Shown here: piece by piece, positions 1-6,648 of the stretch
How positions within the stretch are numbered: position 1 is the first letter of the stretch
How the letters are laid out: every line of letters starts with the position of its first letter
NCBI RefSeq assembly: GCF_023115465.1
Contig: NZ_CP096034.1
Location: 2,666,001 to 2,730,000, forward strand
DNA: 64,000 bases
Direction: 5' to 3'
Origin: Gottfriedia acidiceleris
GTDB lineage: Bacteria; Bacillota; Bacilli; Bacillales; Bacillaceae_G
Made by a program: the position numbers and the translations under genes
Notes under the pieces: model-generated
The model's database searches: none
The model's input: the letters and a program-made list of their open reading frames with translations, nothing else
Told to the model about the DNA's origin: nothing

Positions 1-761
1 AATTCTCGCATACCTGGTGTATCGATGACCATTCCGCCAGATGGTAGGAAAAATAATTCGCGGTGTGTTGTTGTGTGTTTACCACGATCGTCACCTTCAC
101 GTACGTCCTGTGTTATTTGAATTACTTCACCGATTAGCGCGTTTAATAATGTAGATTTACCAACACCTGAAGAACCAAGTAAAGAAACAGTCTTCCCTTC
201 TGAAATGAGCTGTTTCAGTTCTTCAATCCCTTCTCCATTTGTACTATTTACAGAATAAATCGGTACACCAAATGCAATCTCTTCAACTGCTGCAATTTTG
301 GTTGGTAAGTCAGTGCATAAATCTTTTTTTGTTAAAACAATAATTGGATTTGCTCCACTATCATAGGCAACTAGTAAATAACGTTCTAATCTTCTTATAT
401 TAAAATCGTTATTTAATGCCATTACTAAAAACACGTAATCTATATTAGCAGCTACTATTTGTTCTTCAGTTTTTTCTCCTGCAGATTGCCTTGAGAATTG
501 ACTTATTCTCGGCAATACCTTTTGGATAATTGCTTTGTTTTCACCTTTTAATGGTTCGATTACAACCCAATCTCCAACGGATGGATAATCACTTTTTACT
601 TTTGCTTGGAATTGAAATTTCCCAGAAACTTCACCAGTTAGTTCAGTTTCTCCATCATGCAATTTATAAATTTGTCTTTGTTCTGAAATTACTCTTGCAA
701 CTACAGTATTTTGATCCTTTTCTCCGAACGTTTCGTTCCAACCTAATTGTTTTAAATTCAT
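1..761 (-). CDS. rsgA: Ribosome small-subunit-dependent GTPase A (RsgA/YjeQ family), partial
   Basis: The frame is open from 761 to the window edge, giving about 253 residues; the C-terminal part, where the family's zinc-binding domain lies, is outside the window. An N-terminal OB-fold-like region is followed by the circularly permuted G motifs typical of RsgA: TKKD (G4), then the P-loop GSSGVGKST, then DTPG (G3). The family acts late in 30S subunit maturation. The ATG at 761 has the ribosome site GGAGG just upstream (767-771), and this site can pair with an upstream segment, see the leader features at 763-860. The N-terminus resembles the second RsgA copy that some Bacillus carry rather than the prkC-linked one; that is an impression, not an alignment. 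Confidence 0.93.
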   Translation of the reverse strand, partial: MNLKQLGWNETFGEKDQNTVVARVISEQRQIYKLHDGETELTGEVSGKFQFQAKVKSDYPSVGDWVVIEPLKGENKAIIQKVLPRISQFSRQSAGEKTEEQIVAANIDYVFLVMALNNDFNIRRLERYLLVAYDSGANPIIVLTKKDLCTDLPTKIAAVEEIAFGVPIYSVNSTNGEGIEELKQLISEGKTVSLLGSSGVGKSTLLNALIGEVIQITQDVREGDDRGKHTTTHRELFFLPSGGMVIDTPGMRE

Positions 762-762
762 T

Positions 763-816
763 TTGTCCTCCAATTATATAAGGACAATAATGAAGATTTA
801 CTCCATTTTTTGTCCT
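763..816 (-). promoter_or_regulatory. Mutually exclusive hairpins masking the rsgA ribosome site
   Basis: On the transcript the order is AGGACAA (810-816), TTGTCCT (781-787), AGGACAA (763-769). The middle segment can pair with either flank over 7 bp. Pairing with the last segment buries the GGAGG of rsgA in a stem with an 11-nt loop. Pairing with the first leaves it free. The first segment lies inside the leader ORF at 798-860. The arrangement looks like translational attenuation; which state is repressive is inferred, not shown. Confidence 0.5.
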
Positions 817-860
817 CTATTATTTACCCTCTTCTGAACTAAATTAATTAACTTTCCCAT
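798..860 (-). CDS. Possible 20-residue leader peptide upstream of rsgA
   Basis: ATG at 860 to TAA at 798-800 encodes 20 residues, beginning MGKLINLVQK and ending GQKME. A GGAG at 869-872 sits 8 nt before the ATG, an ideal ribosome site. The last codons lie on the first arm of the alternative hairpins that cover the rsgA start, so ribosomes on this ORF would change which hairpin forms. No database family is recognised. It could be a chance ORF, but the ribosome site plus hairpin geometry favours a real leader. Confidence 0.5.
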   Translation of the reverse strand: MGKLINLVQKRVNNRGQKME

Positions 861-968
861 ATTCATCACTCCGTTTCATATATAGTACTTTTAGTATATC
901 CAAATTTTAGAAAATCGTCCATATGAATTGATTGAATATTAAAAAAGGACAAAACATTCTATTTTTAT

Positions 969-985
969 TTCGACATATTTTGACA
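969..985 (-). promoter_or_regulatory. Spo0A-box pair, distal
   Basis: TTCGACA at 969-975 is an exact reverse copy of the 0A box TGTCGAA. TTTGACA at 979-985 has one mismatch and lies exactly 10 bp on, the helical phasing of tandem 0A boxes. It lies about 460 bp from dtpT, so its target is unclear. Confidence 0.35.
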
Positions 986-1321
986 ATTCCCATTCTTTTG
1001 TTTAATTAAACTTTTATAATATTAAAGTAAAAAATAATAAAAACCCTTGAAATATTTCAAAAACTTATTATTATTTAAATATAGGTCTTTTTGTTTAGAC
1101 TGTACTAATACAGGTCAATCGACAAAGTCTAAAAATACTAGTTTAATAAGAAAAATCAGTATTGCAAGATTTGTCTGACAATATAAAAAACTTTACAGAA
1201 ATACGCTATTGTGTGTTATACTAAAATAGTAAATTGGTCCCAAGTTTTTTTGCGGATCTAGATAAAAAATTTAGTAGCATTGTTCTGTTGAAAAAAGTTA
1301 GAAATTTTTTTTAACTCAAAT

Positions 1322-1338
1322 TGTCGAAATTTGTTGAA
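1322..1338 (+). promoter_or_regulatory. Tandem Spo0A boxes at the dtpT promoter
   Basis: TGTCGAA at 1322-1328 matches the 0A box exactly. TGTTGAA at 1332-1338 has one mismatch and is 10 bp away in the same orientation. The pair overlaps the -35 region of the dtpT promoter, which would suit direct control by Spo0A~P during the transition to sporulation. Confidence 0.5.
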
Positions 1339-1360
1339 TTCGGAAATTATTTTTTATAGT
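1331..1360 (+). promoter_or_regulatory. Probable sigma-A promoter of dtpT
   Basis: TTGTTG (1331-1336), an 18-bp spacer and TATAGT (1355-1360), about 90 bp before the start codon. Confidence 0.45.
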
Positions 1361-1448
1361 AAATTGACAGAATAGTATATGAATTGACGACAATAAATAT
1401 TCATACAGAAAATTACACAAAATAGCACTAATGAGGGAGGAATTTTGA

Positions 1449-2843
1449 ATGAGCGTAGCAGCAAAACAAAACGTTTCATCAAACGAGCAAAATCAAAAAA
1501 CGAAACACCCACCTGGCCTTTACTTACTTTTTGCAACTGAGGCTTGGGAGCGCTTTAGTTATTATGGAATGCGTGCACTTTTAGTTCTTTACTTAACAAC
1601 TTCAGTAGTTCAAGGTGGACTAGGATTTAAAGATGCTTGGGCACTACAACTTTATGGATTATTTACTGGATTAGTATATTTCACTCCAATCATTGGTGGT
1701 TGGATTACAGATAATTTCCTTGCAAAGCGTGCTGCGATAACACTTGGTGGTATTATTATGGCAGCTGGTAATATCGCATTATTCGGTATTCATTCTTCAA
1801 CAGGTTTATATCTTGGTTTAATTTTAATGATTATCGGTAATGGTTTCTTCAAGCCAAACATTTCAACAATTGTTGGTGAACTTTATGAAGGAGATGACCC
1901 ACGTCGTGATGGTGCATTCACAATCTTCTACATGGGTATCAACTTAGGTGCATTCTTTGCTCCACTTGTTACTGGTTACTTAGCACAAACTTTATTTATG
2001 TCAAAAAATGCTGCTGGCGATGATTTATTCGGTTACCGTTATGGTTTCTTAGCAGCTGCAATCGGTATGATTATTGGTCAAATTATTTTCAACTTATTAG
2101 CATCAAAATATCTTGGTGACTTAGGTACAAAACCTAATGCAAAAGTTGTGAAAGAGGGTAACAGCGCTTCAGTTAAGGATATCCCTCTTACTAAAAAAGA
2201 AAAACAACGTACTACTGTTATCTTTATCTTAGCTGCATTCGTAGTATTTTTCTGGGCTGGATTTGAACAAGCTGGTTCATCATTAACACTTTATACTGAG
2301 CGTTTCTTAGATCTTAAAGTTGGAAGCTTCAATGTACCATCTGCATGGTTCCAATCTGTTAACCCATTATTCATTATGCTTTTCGCTCCTGTTCTTTCTA
2401 TGATCTGGATTAAAATGGCAAGAAATGGTAAAAACATTAGCGTTCCTGCGAAAATGGCAATGGGTCTTATCCTATTAGGTGTTGGTTTCGCATTCACAAT
2501 TATGGCAGTTATGAAAACAGGTTCTGATCCAAATCATATTACTGTAAAAGCAAACATGTTATTCATGGTTATGACATATTTCTTCCATACAATTGCTGAA
2601 TTAGTACTTTCACCAGTTGGGTTATCAGCAGTATCTCGTTATGCACCTGCTAAACTTGCTTCATTATTAATGGGTGTATGGTTATCATCAAGTTTCATTG
2701 CAAACTTAGTTGGTGGTCAATTAGCTGCATTTACAACAACTCTTGGAATGTTACAAGTATTCTTAGCAGTAGGTGGAGCAGCAATCGTTGCAGGTTTAAT
2801 CTTACTTGCTTTATCACCAAAACTTGCAAAAATGTTAGACTAA
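1449..2843 (+). CDS. dtpT: Proton-dependent oligopeptide transporter (POT/PTR2 family)
   Basis: The 464-residue membrane protein belongs to the POT branch of the major facilitator superfamily and imports di- and tripeptides with protons across the cytoplasmic membrane. The ExxER signature lies at residues 31-35, followed by FSYYG at 36-40. The second PTR2 signature, FYMGINLGAFFAPL, is near residue 160. About 12-14 hydrophobic helices can be seen across the full length, matching the family. The ATG at 1449 follows GGGAGGAA. It stands alone between its own promoter and a strong terminator at 2856-2886. Tandem Spo0A-like boxes at the promoter suggest growth-phase control. Family assignment is secure; substrate range is inferred. 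Confidence 0.95.
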   Translation: MSVAAKQNVSSNEQNQKTKHPPGLYLLFATEAWERFSYYGMRALLVLYLTTSVVQGGLGFKDAWALQLYGLFTGLVYFTPIIGGWITDNFLAKRAAITLGGIIMAAGNIALFGIHSSTGLYLGLILMIIGNGFFKPNISTIVGELYEGDDPRRDGAFTIFYMGINLGAFFAPLVTGYLAQTLFMSKNAAGDDLFGYRYGFLAAAIGMIIGQIIFNLLASKYLGDLGTKPNAKVVKEGNSASVKDIPLTKKEKQRTTVIFILAAFVVFFWAGFEQAGSSLTLYTERFLDLKVGSFNVPSAWFQSVNPLFIMLFAPVLSMIWIKMARNGKNISVPAKMAMGLILLGVGFAFTIMAVMKTGSDPNHITVKANMLFMVMTYFFHTIAELVLSPVGLSAVSRYAPAKLASLLMGVWLSSSFIANLVGGQLAAFTTTLGMLQVFLAVGGAAIVAGLILLALSPKLAKMLD

Positions 2844-2855
2844 TTACAAAATTAA

Positions 2856-2886
2856 AAGAACTCGATATGATCGAGTTCTTTTTTTA
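2856..2886 (+). terminator. Rho-independent terminator after dtpT
   Basis: An 11-bp perfect stem (AAGAACTCGAT with ATCGAGTTCTT, 3-nt loop) precedes a T run. A-rich sequence on the other side lets it also serve dut on the minus strand. Confidence 0.9.
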
Positions 2887-2897
2887 TTTCTGCATTT

Positions 2898-3347
2898 TTA
2901 TTTGCCAGTACTTCCAAAACCACTAACTCGTTCTTCCCCTGCGAAATCATCATCAGCTAATAAGAACTTTTGGAAAACAGCTTGTCCAATTCTCTCACCT
3001 TTTTGAATGATCACAGGCTCCTTCGAAACATTTATTAATTGCATCATGATATGGCCATCGTTTGAAGGATTGCTATAGTAGTCTGAATCAATAACCCCTA
3101 CCCCATTTCCTTTCATTAAACCTTTCTTTAACGGTGTAGACGAGCGTACAAATAATGCTAAAAATTCGTCTTTTTGCATATACGCTTTTAATCCTGTACC
3201 AACAAGTTTGATCTCGTTTGGATTTATAATTGTCTCTTCAATACATTCGATATCATATCCAGCTGCATGAGTAGTTGCTCTTTTTGGTAGATTCACTCCA
3301 CAATTTTCGAATCCTTTTGCTATTTCAAAACCTCTTATTTTTTCCAA
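2898..3347 (-). CDS. dut: dUTP diphosphatase (trimeric dUTPase family)
   Basis: This hydrolyses dUTP to dUMP and pyrophosphate, keeping uracil out of DNA and feeding thymidylate synthesis. All five motifs of the homotrimeric family are visible in order in the 149 residues: AGYDIE (about 29-34), RSSTPLKKG (about 67-75), GVIDSDYYSNPSNDG (about 83-97), KGERIGQAVF, and C-terminal RVSGFGSTG. A TTG start at 3347 is chosen because AAAGGGTG lies 6 nt upstream; the in-frame GTG 9 nt earlier overlaps that ribosome site. The copy resembles the YncF/YosS type of Bacillus. It is a single gene. Confidence 0.93.
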   Translation of the reverse strand: MEKIRGFEIAKGFENCGVNLPKRATTHAAGYDIECIEETIINPNEIKLVGTGLKAYMQKDEFLALFVRSSTPLKKGLMKGNGVGVIDSDYYSNPSNDGHIMMQLINVSKEPVIIQKGERIGQAVFQKFLLADDDFAGEERVSGFGSTGK

Positions 3348-3429
3348 AACTTTCACCCTTTACCATTTAATCCATTTCTAGTGTAACATAGATATTTTCA
3401 TAATGATAAAATTATTATAGAACGTAAAA

Positions 3430-3461
3430 AAGAGGCTGTCTTTCTAAACAGACAGCCTCTT
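3430..3461 (-). terminator. Terminator of the double-GNAT gene
   Basis: An 11-bp perfect stem (GAGGCTGTC core) is followed on the minus strand by a run of T. Confidence 0.85.
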
Positions 3462-3466
3462 ACAAA

Positions 3467-4291
3467 TTATTGACTAATTTTATAATAATCTTGAGTGTTA
3501 TATTGTCTAAATCCACAATCGATATATAATTTCTTCGCGTTACTATTTTCTAGGGCAACTTCTAAATGAATTTCGTTTCCAATCTCGTTTTCTTTTTGAA
3601 TGGTTTGGAGTAATGCATTTTTTCCATATCCCCTACCTTGGTATTCTGGAAGTATTGCAAATCCATAAATCCAACTCTCATTATTTTCTCGTAGCAAACT
3701 CATTTTACCAATTTTTTCATCATTTACTTCTATTATAAATAAATCACGATCTGGTTCATTTAAAATACGTTGATTGTACTTCTTTGCATCACTATTTTCA
3801 AATCCAAAACATACAACATCTAAATTTGAAATAAATGCGAAATCTAATTGCTCTGCTTTCGTGAATTTAACGATTGGTGTAAATTCTTTTACCACTTGGT
3901 TTTTCCAAACCATTTGATATTCAGAAAATGAATAGTTACATTTATTTTGATTTCGAATAAATCCTTTCGCTGATGCTGAAGCTTCAGGAGCATTTAATAA
4001 AATGGTAGTGGTAGGAGCTATTGAATTAAGTGCTTCATTTAACAAACTAGAAAAAATTCCTTTTCGTCGATAATCTGGATGAACCATACCGCAGATTTCA
4101 ACTTTTTCTCCAAAGTAGTAAGTCGCTAAAAATCCAACTAATTGATTTTCTTCATAGTGAAAGAAATCTTCTTTTATATCTTTTCTTCGATTTCTTAACA
4201 TTTCCCAGTTTAACTTTAAAGTTATTTCATCAAATTTTTCACATGTTTCTTGTAGTATGTTAATTTCGTTTAATTGTTTTTCTGTCATCAT
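3467..4291 (-). CDS. Tandem GNAT-fold N-acetyltransferase
   Basis: Two GNAT modules can be recognised in about 274 residues. The N-terminal one has the acetyl-CoA loop VHPDYRRKGIFSSLL near residue 75. The C-terminal one has LPEYQGRGYGKNALL near residue 215, where R/QxxGxG/A is the motif A signature. The second domain looks the more canonical. The acceptor substrate cannot be told from sequence. Start M at 4291 is preferred because AAGGTGG lies 5 nt upstream; a GTG three codons earlier is possible. It is monocistronic, with a terminator right after the stop. Confidence 0.85.
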   Translation of the reverse strand: MMTEKQLNEINILQETCEKFDEITLKLNWEMLRNRRKDIKEDFFHYEENQLVGFLATYYFGEKVEICGMVHPDYRRKGIFSSLLNEALNSIAPTTTILLNAPEASASAKGFIRNQNKCNYSFSEYQMVWKNQVVKEFTPIVKFTKAEQLDFAFISNLDVVCFGFENSDAKKYNQRILNEPDRDLFIIEVNDEKIGKMSLLRENNESWIYGFAILPEYQGRGYGKNALLQTIQKENEIGNEIHLEVALENSNAKKLYIDCGFRQYNTQDYYKISQ

Positions 4292-4384
4292 ATTTTCCAC
4301 CTTCTTACACTACTTCGCTTAGTCCCTTTAGAGTTATTCAGCAAAAAAGCATTTCTTCCTTTATTGAGATTCCATTAATCGAAA

Positions 4385-5449
4385 TCAATTACTATTTATT
4401 TCTTCAAGAAGTAGATCAAGTGCATAACTTTGATTCGATGATTTCATTTTGGTAATGAAAAAGTCCTTTTTAGTTTGAAGTTCTTCTATTGATTCTTGAA
4501 GTGATTTTTTCGTTAAATCCTCTTCTTCCAGCATTAATGCAAAGCCTTTTTCTTTAAAAGAATTTGCATTTACTATTTGGTCTCCCCTACTTTGATTTTT
4601 CGTAAGTGGGATGATTAACATCGGTTTATGTAACGCTAAAAATTCAAATATAGCATTTGACCCACCTCTTGTGAGAATCATTTGAGATGCGGCCAATACA
4701 TCTGCTAGCTCGTCGTGTACATATTCAAATTGCTTATATCCTTGAATATTTTTTAAACTTTCATCAACATTTCCTTTTCCACATAGATGGACAATCTGGT
4801 ACTTTTTCGTTAGATCTTGTAATGATTCTCTAACAGTTTCATTGATTTTTTTTGCTCCTAAACTTCCACCCATAATTGTTAATATTGGTATATAGCTTTT
4901 AAAATTAAGGAATTGTAAGCCCTTTTGCCTTGAGCCATTTAATAGTTCTTTTCTTATAGGTGAACCAATAACTGTTGTTTTATTTTTTGGAAAATAATTT
5001 TTTGCTTCTTCAAATGACGTAAAAATTTTTGTAGCAAATCGCTGAGAAATTTTATTTGCAAGTCCTGGGGTCATATCACTTTCATGAATAAAAATTGGAA
5101 TTTTCAATGTGCTAGCAGCAATGATTACTGGTACAGAAACAAAGCCACCCTTTGAAAAAACTAAACTTGGCTTAATTTTTTTTAATACTTTTCTGGCGTC
5201 AAGACAGCCTTTTATTACTCGAAACAGGTCAATAATATTTTCAAAATCTATATATCGTCTTAATTTTCCGCTTGAAATCCCGTAATAAGGTAATTCAATT
5301 TTATTTATTAGTTCCTTTTCAATTCCTTTTTTTGATCCAATATAATGGATATCCCAATCATTTTTATTTAATTCATTTATAATGGCGATATTTGGTGTTA
5401 CATGCCCCGCAGAGCCCCCACCGGTAAATACTATTGTTTTCTTAGACAT
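4385..5449 (-). CDS. murG: MurG-type UDP-GlcNAc glycosyltransferase, orphan copy
   Basis: At 354 residues this matches the usual MurG length. It has the N-terminal glycine-rich loop GGGSAGHVTPN (about residues 10-20), the HESDMTPGLANK segment (about 122-133), MGGSLGAKKINE at the C-terminal domain, and TRGGSNAIFEFLAL, the UDP-GlcNAc-binding signature. MurG transfers GlcNAc to undecaprenyl-pyrophosphoryl-MurNAc-pentapeptide (lipid I to lipid II) at the inner face of the membrane. No other dcw genes are nearby, so this is probably a second, dispersed copy, as some Bacillus carry. Whether it acts in vegetative wall, cortex or another glycolipid pathway is unknown. Confidence 0.88.
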   Translation of the reverse strand: MSKKTIVFTGGGSAGHVTPNIAIINELNKNDWDIHYIGSKKGIEKELINKIELPYYGISSGKLRRYIDFENIIDLFRVIKGCLDARKVLKKIKPSLVFSKGGFVSVPVIIAASTLKIPIFIHESDMTPGLANKISQRFATKIFTSFEEAKNYFPKNKTTVIGSPIRKELLNGSRQKGLQFLNFKSYIPILTIMGGSLGAKKINETVRESLQDLTKKYQIVHLCGKGNVDESLKNIQGYKQFEYVHDELADVLAASQMILTRGGSNAIFEFLALHKPMLIIPLTKNQSRGDQIVNANSFKEKGFALMLEEEDLTKKSLQESIEELQTKKDFFITKMKSSNQSYALDLLLEEINSN

Positions 5450-5808
5450 ATTAACTCCAATCTATTTTCTTTTTCAATTCCCAAATTTTTAAAGTCCATA
5501 CTGGGACCAAAATAGCCTACTATAATATTTTAATCTCCCAAAAATTTTAACTCTCTATTTTTTCTCAATTTTATATCTTTATGTACCTTCATAGCTAAAA
5601 AATGCATAATTAGGCAAAGTATTCCCTTCATAAATTCACCAAATCAGAGTGTATTTCCTTTAAAAAGTAAAAATGCATTACTTCTTTTTTTAGAAGTAAT
5701 GCATTTTCTCTGTTGTAAAATATGTGTACCTTACACCATGTTCACTGGCTAAATGTATCGAATGGATAGCGACTTCGCTCCAAAATCAATAAAATAAATC
5801 AAACGAGC
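5450..5808. other. Intergenic region between murG and the histidine-rich gene
   Basis: This AT-rich region of about 360 bp has no credible ORF. The only structure seen is the strong hairpin at 5670-5707. Confidence 0.5.
5670..5707 (-). terminator. Strong hairpin terminator
   Basis: A 16-bp perfect stem (AAAATGCATTACTTCT and its complement) with a 6-nt loop. On the minus strand it is followed by TTTTTACTTTTT, about 100 nt after the stop of the histidine-rich gene. Confidence 0.75.
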
Positions 5809-6648
5809 CTATCTTTTATCGTTAGGATCTACTTCAAACCATTCAGACATCGATAAGTTGGTAGTAGAGTCTTCCCAATCATCAATTGATAAATCAGAAA
5901 AATCCGTTTCTAATAATTGTTCAGATGTCTTCTTTTCATTAGAGACGTTACCATGATTGTTATGTTGGTGTTGTTCTTCATTATGATTTGTAAAATCATA
6001 AGTTAATTCCGAATAATTTTTTTCATTAAAACTAGTTAATCCAGTTACTAGACCGCTCGATTTACTTTCGTCCATTGTACTTGCAGAATACTGGTTTATA
6101 TTTTCTATATTTTGATTATTATACTTTTTCCTATTAGCTACTCTTGAGTTATGCTGCTTTTCCTCAAAAAGGTCTTGATGCTCTTGTTGTTGATGGTCTT
6201 CATGCTTATGATGTTCATGATTTTCATGATGCTCTTTATGACCTTCGTGCTTTGGTTCAAAAATACTTGCTGAAAATTCCTCCACATTATGTATTAGATT
6301 TTCAGCCCAATTAGGATGATCAGGATGGTGTTCATGACCTTTTTGATGCTTTTGATGTCTGTTTTGCTCATCATGTTCATGATGCTCGTTATGCTGGTGA
6401 TTTCCTTTATTATGATCTATATTGTGATGTGAGTTTAATTCATTTTCACTGTTAATCATGGATAGTGTAGTTTTTAATTCTTTTTCTATATTCACAATTT
6501 GATGGTCAAAATTATGTAATTGCTTTTTAATTTCTTCCATATGAGACTCTATTTCATCTATTCTTTTGTTAACCTTATGCAAATTTTTTTGATGTTCATT
6601 TTTTTTCAAATCAAATTGCTCTAATAATTTATCAAATGAAAGATCCAT
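5809..6648 (-). CDS. Histidine-rich protein with N-terminal coiled coil, function unknown
   Basis: This 279-residue protein is not recognised as a known family. Residues 1 to about 60 are charged and heptad-like (MDLSFDKLLEQFDLKK onward), consistent with a coiled coil. Residues from about 75 to 160 are extremely rich in His, Glu, Lys and Gln with many HEH, HHEH and HKH patterns. The C-terminal 100 residues are acidic and Ser/Thr/Asn-rich. No signal peptide or membrane helix is seen, so it should be cytosolic or in the spore. Start M at 6648 follows TAGGTGAG; a GTG three codons upstream lacks a ribosome site. Metal binding or a spore-coat or crust role is plausible but unproven. Confidence 0.7.
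   Translation of the reverse strand: MDLSFDKLLEQFDLKKNEHQKNLHKVNKRIDEIESHMEEIKKQLHNFDHQIVNIEKELKTTLSMINSENELNSHHNIDHNKGNHQHNEHHEHDEQNRHQKHQKGHEHHPDHPNWAENLIHNVEEFSASIFEPKHEGHKEHHENHEHHKHEDHQQQEHQDLFEEKQHNSRVANRKKYNNQNIENINQYSASTMDESKSSGLVTGLTSFNEKNYSELTYDFTNHNEEQHQHNNHGNVSNEKKTSEQLLETDFSDLSIDDWEDSTTNLSMSEWFEVDPNDKR

Follow-up and report, generated by a model that had tools for sequence, protein, structure and literature searches.

A putative ribosome-sensing leader upstream of an accessory RsgA-type GTPase gene in Gottfriedia and other Bacilli

Introduction

Near the start of the window (the whole 64,000-nucleotide stretch of Gottfriedia acidiceleris DNA that was analysed), a short open reading frame (ORF) with its own ribosome-binding site lies ahead of a gene that encodes an RsgA-type GTPase. 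This arrangement raises the question of whether the leader controls the gene behind it and, if so, which condition it reads. A first-pass annotation had proposed that a leader peptide and two competing hairpins adjust the synthesis of RsgA to the supply of ribosomes. In the analysis presented here, this 5' leader is probably a ribosome-mediated translational attenuator, in which failure of early leader translation would turn the downstream gene (rsgA2) on. Its working in cells, its inducer and the role of RsgA2 are what we infer from sequence comparison and RNA modelling.

Identity of the downstream gene

The genome carries two full RsgA-type genes: the 348-aa window copy and a canonical copy, which is located after a gene that we take to be prkC and before a presumed rpe. 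The canonical type is present in 61/61 order genomes (E ≤ 1e-60), while the window's type is found in 221/397 order genomes and 187/398 class genomes (E ≤ 1e-40; the two samples of 397 and 398 partly overlap, with some genomes common to both). Based on this distribution, we class the window gene as an accessory RsgA paralogue, named RsgA2 here, and not as the housekeeping rsgA. The assignment to the RsgA family made in the first-pass annotation is supported, that to rsgA itself is not and, because the paralogue is accessory, control of general 30S maturation is not implied.

The RsgA GTPase domain is found in both copies (in RsgA2, PF03193 scores 187.2 bits with a cut-off of 30). The windowed part of RsgA2 matches TIGR00157 (122.3, cut-off 100), and the solved chains that match RsgA2 best are RsgA/EngC proteins. 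The N-terminal domain PF16745 was matched in the canonical copy only and not in RsgA2, a branch that the model may miss. RsgA2 shows 98% protein identity to its counterpart in G. luciferensis and 97% to that in G. acidiceleris. Family membership would suggest a role for RsgA2 in 30S maturation.

Leader ORF and competing hairpins

The features of the locus are listed in Table 1; nothing within the annotated positions 763-872 had been misplaced. The leader stop codon is separated from the rsgA2 start by 36 nt. The leader ribosome site had been called ideal, and this description was too generous: GGAGTGAT is one G short of GGAGGTGAT, which makes it strong. Leader ribosome sites in other genera are of the same type (AAGGAGTGATG). 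When the 13 Gottfriedia leaders (that of the window and 12 others) were read for the nascent-chain arrest motifs IFVI and RLR, neither was present. A search of window positions 1-6000 with 4227 Rfam models (E up to 1) gave no match to the leader.

Table 1. Features of the rsgA2 leader and gene start (window positions)
Feature	Positions	Strand	Remarks
Promoter-like TGGACG-N17-TATACT	893..921	-	predicted transcript start ~886, upstream of leader; 9/12 matches
Leader ribosome-binding site GGAGTGAT	865..872	-	identical across all 11 aligned sequences
Leader ORF MGKLINLVQKRVNNRGQKME	798..860	-	20 codons + stop; ATG 860, stop 800-798; 20 codons in 13/13 Gottfriedia leaders
Segment 1 AGGACAA	810..816	-	leader codons 15-17; mimics rsgA ribosome site
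Segment 2 TTGTCCT (shared arm)	781..787	-	can pair with either segment 1 or segment 3
Segment 3 AGGACAA	763..769	-	overlaps rsgA SD GGAGG 771-767
Hairpin 1, predicted ON form	780..817	-	15 pairs, leader stop in loop; -15.0 kcal/mol
Hairpin 2, predicted OFF form	763..787	-	segment 2 with rsgA ribosome site; 7 pairs in fold; -8.1 kcal/mol
rsgA2 ribosome site GGAGGACAA	763..771	-	SD GGAGG 771-767; contains segment 3 (769-763); GGAGGACA invariant in 13/13
rsgA2 (accessory RsgA-type GTPase), 5' part	3..761	-	start 761; runs off window; 348 aa in genome

The three segments are present as first described, with the middle one able to pair with either the leader or the rsgA2 ribosome site. The two resulting structures are predicted to be mutually exclusive: one takes in the end of the leader, the other blocks the rsgA2 site. 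Hairpin 1 is longer than had been noticed, with an additional arm formed by AATGGAG (807-801) and CTTCATT (795-789). With the last 16 nt (the rsgA SD) held fixed, a 7-nt triple of this kind arose in 7 of 20000 dinucleotide shuffles, and without this constraint in 12 of 5000. In the 4.69-Mb genome, a triple with the same letters and spacing limits occurs once, at this locus. The fold of positions 740-890 has a z-score of -2.12 (3/200 shuffles were equally good).

A transcript start downstream of 816, which the first-pass annotation had named as evidence against a switch, is not indicated by the sequence, as the promoter-like site precedes the leader. Six sites of that score were found against 5.2 expected, so that the site alone is no better than chance; its -10 part is kept in the aligned relatives and reads TATAAT in the most divergent leader discussed below (L013). 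No intrinsic terminator was detected within positions 700-1450 of the window and, therefore, a switch in this species would act on translation.

Conservation among Gottfriedia leaders

Loss of conservation in related leaders was looked for in an alignment, as had been proposed, and was not found: the leader SD, the 20-codon leader and the pairable segments are all kept in ten aligned Gottfriedia-type homologues. The letters of segment 1 vary, with a G as first base in L011 and L012. In L013 (77% protein identity), segments 1 and 2 are both changed and the peptide is different (MSKFLILNLTYYLIEGHKVI), with the pairing retained. Conservation at the level of the peptide was considered for the window's clade and rejected on the basis of this L013 sequence.

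In the 13 leaders, which are distinct in the alignment, the hairpin 1 partners can pair in 98.5% of 194 cells, versus 46.8-66.1% when the partners are slid; three cells are unpaired. Two of its pairs show two-sided changes, both in L013 and thus in one lineage. For hairpin 2, pairing is possible in 99.0% of 104 cells and 6/8 pairs never vary. No two-sided change in hairpin 2 was found among the 13 leaders and its 3' arm is the ribosome site, so covariation says little about this hairpin. Overall, the covariation that can be read from these sequences gives thin support for the hairpins.

Effect of ribosome position on the rsgA2 start

To model the switch, a ribosome footprint was masked codon by codon on the leader and the openness of the rsgA2 ribosome site was computed. 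For the window, the model gives an open site (0.79-0.93) when the leader is empty or carries a ribosome whose P site is within codons 1-10, and a closed one (0.15) once the P site has reached codons 11-20; the ribosome-free leader is itself modelled as open (0.87-0.93). Over three footprint sizes and two site definitions, the last open codon ranges from 9 to 11. Combining the widest footprint with the alternative site definition leaves the site half open (0.47) when the ribosome is at codon 20.

The step follows codon 9 or 10 in 13/13 Gottfriedia leaders, that of L013 being one codon earlier. L010 steps from a weaker open state, its free leader being mostly closed (0.26), and the free RNA is also modelled as less open in L012 (0.41) and L110 (0.25). 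Within the model, the outcome is set by the position of the ribosome on the leader.

Leader ORFs at other RsgA2 loci

A total of 227 RsgA2 upstream regions was reduced to 176 non-redundant loci by removing near-duplicates on the basis of shared 8-mers. L029 and L078 (little upstream DNA), two loci for which no start was found and one with <250 nt upstream were dropped. A leader was defined by an ATG, an SD energy ≤ -6.5 and a length of 9-32 codons; this rule was fixed after inspection of the data and shuffled sequences served as the control. "Bacilli" covers five named loci together with those found in the order and class to which the window's genome belongs.

By this rule, a leader ORF preceded by a ribosome site is present in 115/176 non-redundant loci versus 20.0 expected from shuffles. 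The Bacilli account for 100 of these (100/121, 12.3 expected) and the non-Bacilli loci for 15 (15/55, 7.7 expected). Two of the 21 Bacilli loci scored as lacking a leader (L153 and L173) do have one that is beyond the distance limit or ranked otherwise, and a looser rule finds leaders in 180/227 redundant loci. The same test found a leader ORF in 0/18 control genes of the window and in three canonical rsgA genes out of 30 (the best-scoring 30 of 61); 26 of these 30 genes have an upstream ORF no more than 60 nt away. RsgA2 leaders have a median length of 22 codons and are separated from the gene by up to 196 nt. The central proposal of the first-pass annotation, that the leader ORF forms a switch reading ribosome progress, is thus strengthened by conservation in relatives, by its wide occurrence upstream of this gene and by the modelled step.

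The footprint model was also applied to the loci with a short gap (≤100 nt) between leader and gene. Opening of the SD with an early ribosome exceeded that with a late ribosome by at least 0.3 in 18/52 loci, versus 4.8% of gap shuffles; the opposite sign (≤ -0.3) was seen in 1/52, versus 11.7% of gap shuffles. The simple switch test was failed by 34/52 short-gap loci. At L100, a member of the window's own family, the site is modelled as closed throughout (0.11 or less). In a class that we label Brevibacillus-like by inference (L117, L119, L126, L137 and L198), the model shows no difference between early and late ribosomes and the device may be a different one. The leaders of L117, L119, L126 and L137 encode VTGILLS, VTGKILLS or VAGILLS peptides and show strong leader-end pairing. 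When 15 related loci were searched with Rfam, the sole match at gathering level was a purine riboswitch located outside the leader (L117 989-1090, minus strand).

A leader of this design (MAIVKMENLIINTGVFYL) is also found 30 nt upstream of an rsgA gene of Listeria monocytogenes (L235 1408-1464), with a hairpin at its stop codon. The Listeria site is modelled as open (0.70-0.82) with the P site at codons 1-8 and at 0.50 at codons 9-16, and it reopens at the last two codons; the fold of this leader is no better than that of shuffles (38/200).

Sequence patterns were sought in 104 leader-bearing loci, consisting of the 100 Bacilli loci and L034, L040, L065 and L084, which were added since a leader had already been seen there. 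This set probably includes a few spurious leaders (e.g. L099, L114, L132 and L227). An IV dipeptide occurs at residues 2-10 in 32/104 leaders (7.4 ± 2.6 in shuffles) and at residues 11-30 in 13/104 (9.2 in shuffles). The early dipeptide, of which L014, L016, L113, L121 and L235 give examples, is located where stalling would give the ON state. Its Ile codon is ATT in 33/36 pairs, versus 109/200 Ile codons of all leaders, and because of this strong codon bias the dipeptide may be at least partly an RNA element, perhaps AUUGU. ACAAT as a downstream partner is unconvincing (9/32, versus 5/32 for a control word).

Terminators in other lineages

An intrinsic terminator is found between leader and gene in 52 of the 104 leader-bearing loci, including 45 of the 52 loci whose gap is >100 nt. 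The first terminator found at each locus was tested; it contains GGGCTG in 21/52, as in ACCATGGGCTGTG, and where GGGCTG is missing a different hairpin may have been tested. CAGCC[CT] is present in 31/104 leaders and GGGCTG in 29/104 gaps, and the two occur together at 27/104 loci, versus 8.6 expected if they were independent. A QP dipeptide is frequent at residues 11-30 (27/104 leaders, 2.1 in shuffles) because the leader carries CAGCCC or CAGCCT. The longest complement between leader and terminator has a mean length of 5.8 nt, versus 4.4 in shuffles. In these lineages, the terminator would be unable to form if CACAGCCC paired with GGGCTGTG, and a ribosome that completes the leader would in turn block this pairing.

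Modelled termination was higher with a late than with an early ribosome by at least 0.3 in 14/52 terminator loci (4.1% of leader shuffles) and lower by the same margin (≤ -0.3) in 0/52 (0.6% of leader shuffles); 38/52 failed the simple switch test. As the modelled change is upward in 14 loci and downward in none, complete translation of the leader appears to hold orthologous genes in the off state through two RNA devices with one logic. The sequences of orthologues in other Bacilli likewise appear to follow the same leader logic, using either translational structures or transcriptional ones (terminator and antiterminator).

Comparison with known attenuators

Leader-ORF attenuation as such is already known. 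As far as the searched open-access literature shows, three things are new here: that it serves an RsgA paralogue, that three segments mimic a ribosome site at this gene, and that two architectures share one logic across the Bacilli. No published description of an rsgA leader was found in that literature, in agreement with the first-pass annotation, which knew of none.

The logic had been described as erm-like in geometry and opposite in sense. In erm, the target site is freed when a ribosome occupies segment 1, and stalling involves an IFVI arrest motif, while in the model a ribosome on segment 1 closes the RsgA2 site and the RsgA2 leader has no arrest motif of the IFVI type. The contrast with erm is correct insofar as a ribosome on the arm shuts rsgA2. 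It does not extend to a ribosome that stalls short of the arm, with its P site no further than codon 10, which leaves the site open; therefore, "stall = ON" can equal the input of erm, vmlR and hflXr. The RsgA2 leader also differs in having three segments, compared with four in ermC. The likenesses to ermC (PMC10219788) are a leader ORF of about 20 codons and sequestration of the SD by alternative pairing.

In a study of Bacillus subtilis vmlR, this gene is induced by stalling on a uORF of 3 codons and also, at 20°C and with no drug present, in a cshA mutant defective in assembly, an effect that the authors call pleiotropic (PMC9226507). The RsgA2 leader, as modelled, resembles the vmlR system described there in having a short uORF on which an early stall would shift competing RNA structures and induce a ribosome-directed factor. 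Further points of likeness are the occurrence of both transcriptional and translational layers and the induction of vmlR in the assembly-defect mutant. They differ in that, according to the same study, stalling at vmlR blocks an anti-antiterminator and the target is an ABCF protein, while the RsgA2 leader has 20 codons, would act in the window at the level of translation alone and precedes the gene for a GTPase of the RsgA type.

The hflXr gene, encoding an HflX paralogue, has an attenuator with a 14-aa ORF (PMC6310831). Like rsgA2, hflXr (rli80 in Listeria) is an accessory paralogue of a ribosome-associated protein placed behind a leader ORF and alternative structures. In contrast, that paper describes hflXr control as transcriptional, with an RLR arrest motif and demonstrated resistance, while the RsgA2 leader lacks RLR and is known from its sequence. 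Finally, a Streptomyces study (PMC7157823) lists the RsgA/EngC paralogues SCO6149 and SCO5211 among pairs that are split in their response to tetracycline: the member activated by WblC responds, its partner does not. There, a ribosome-targeting drug thus acts on one RsgA paralogue of two, through a transcription factor, which makes it a possible parallel to RsgA2.

Proposed mechanism and alternative explanations

In the attenuator that we favour, ribosomes that load at the strong leader site and translate the whole leader would hold hairpin 1 open. Segment 2 would then pair with the rsgA2 ribosome site and translation would be off. A stall within approximately the first ten codons, or lack of initiation, would allow hairpin 1 to form and leave the rsgA2 site free. 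The condition sensed would be failure of early leader translation, with ribosome-targeting antibiotics or other translation stress, including a shortage of initiating ribosomes, as the most likely candidate triggers.

Ribosome supply was the input originally proposed: when 30S subunits competent for initiation are scarce, hairpin 1 would persist and RsgA2 would rise as feedback on assembly. Such coupling is possible, given that the model shows an open site on a leader free of ribosomes (0.87-0.93), and it would fit with the RsgA-type GTPase domain of RsgA2, with the strong and conserved leader SD and with the induction of the vmlR attenuator in the cshA assembly-defect mutant (PMC9226507). Specificity for supply is another matter, as antibiotic stalling or starvation would act alike. 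Moreover, translation of rsgA2 also requires 30S initiation, the paralogue is accessory (221/397), the canonical rsgA (61/61) is generally without a leader (3/30, the best-scoring 30 of 61) and in some relatives the free RNA is modelled as less than open (0.26 in L010, 0.41 in L012 and 0.25 in L110). A dedicated supply gauge is therefore unlikely. Plain translational coupling, in which leader ribosomes would melt a structure at the rsgA2 site and so turn it on, is more improbable still: a stop codon 36 nt from the rsgA2 start would suit it, and L169, L149, L114 and L221 are modelled as more open with a late ribosome, but a ribosome at codons 11-20 closes the window's site in the model, the opposite sign is rare (1/52 short-gap loci at ≤ -0.3) and gaps reach 196 nt, often with a terminator.

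The two readings that deny a switch altogether have very little probability. If the upstream ORF encoded a functional small protein and the hairpins were incidental, retention of 20 codons and a strong SD in 13 Gottfriedia leaders would be explained, but it is the pairing that is conserved and not the peptide (L013 has MSKFLILNLTYYLIEGHKVI, and other genera differ again). Slightly less probable even than this is chance or an unrelated RNA structure, to which the AT-rich sequence and the lack of covariation in hairpin 2 would lend themselves; the scarcity of the triple in shuffles (7/20000 and 12/5000), the conservation and the wide recurrence all speak against it.

Induction of RsgA2 by translation stress is favoured because the input logic is that of antibiotic attenuators and because vmlR, hflXr and the Streptomyces RsgA/EngC proteins provide precedents. 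The recurrence of the arrangement before a spare gene suggests that RsgA2 is part of a translation-stress response. A broader proposal, which we put forward tentatively and consider somewhat less likely than not to hold in full, is that RsgA2 is a stress-induced, 30S-side counterpart of HflXr (HflX itself being a GTPase) and of the ARE-ABCF proteins. It would be silenced by a sensor of early elongation, be made when ribosomes stall or 30S initiation fails, and act on blocked small subunits by clearing or repairing them. At orthologous genes, the sensor would have been rebuilt more than once, as an SD-mimic translational switch and as a terminator/antiterminator, with the same input logic, and RsgA2 would represent a widespread and undescribed stress gene of Bacillota, found also in Listeria. 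If true, the common and little-studied second RsgA of Bacillota would be a regulated stress factor and not a redundant assembly GTPase, and the small subunit would join the inducible ribosome-protection systems. The leader would then be a simple three-segment sensor, with expression set by one step in codon position. One logic over different RNA architectures would be comparative evidence for the purpose of the gene and would open the role of this second RsgA to direct tests.

Other observations

Plasmid carriage was examined because it could have pointed to mobile resistance. A match (E ≤ 1e-30) is present in 69 of 72,556 plasmid records; as all 69 matches have <60% identity and some records are 1.8-2.9 Mb in size, carriage gives no clear sign of this kind. 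On a plasmid of Lysinibacillus fusiformis (L236 1495-3017), rsgA is followed directly by a FosM-type fosfomycin resistance gene (fosM); by eye, no leader of the type described here was seen at this plasmid rsgA.

Elsewhere in the window, positions 4747-4921 (plus strand) match Rfam family RF02895 (Staphylococcus sRNA S414) with 54 bits, compared with a gathering score of 45. The match is antisense to an ORF (4385-5449) that is presumably MurG-like, and the family may simply overlap coding sequence.
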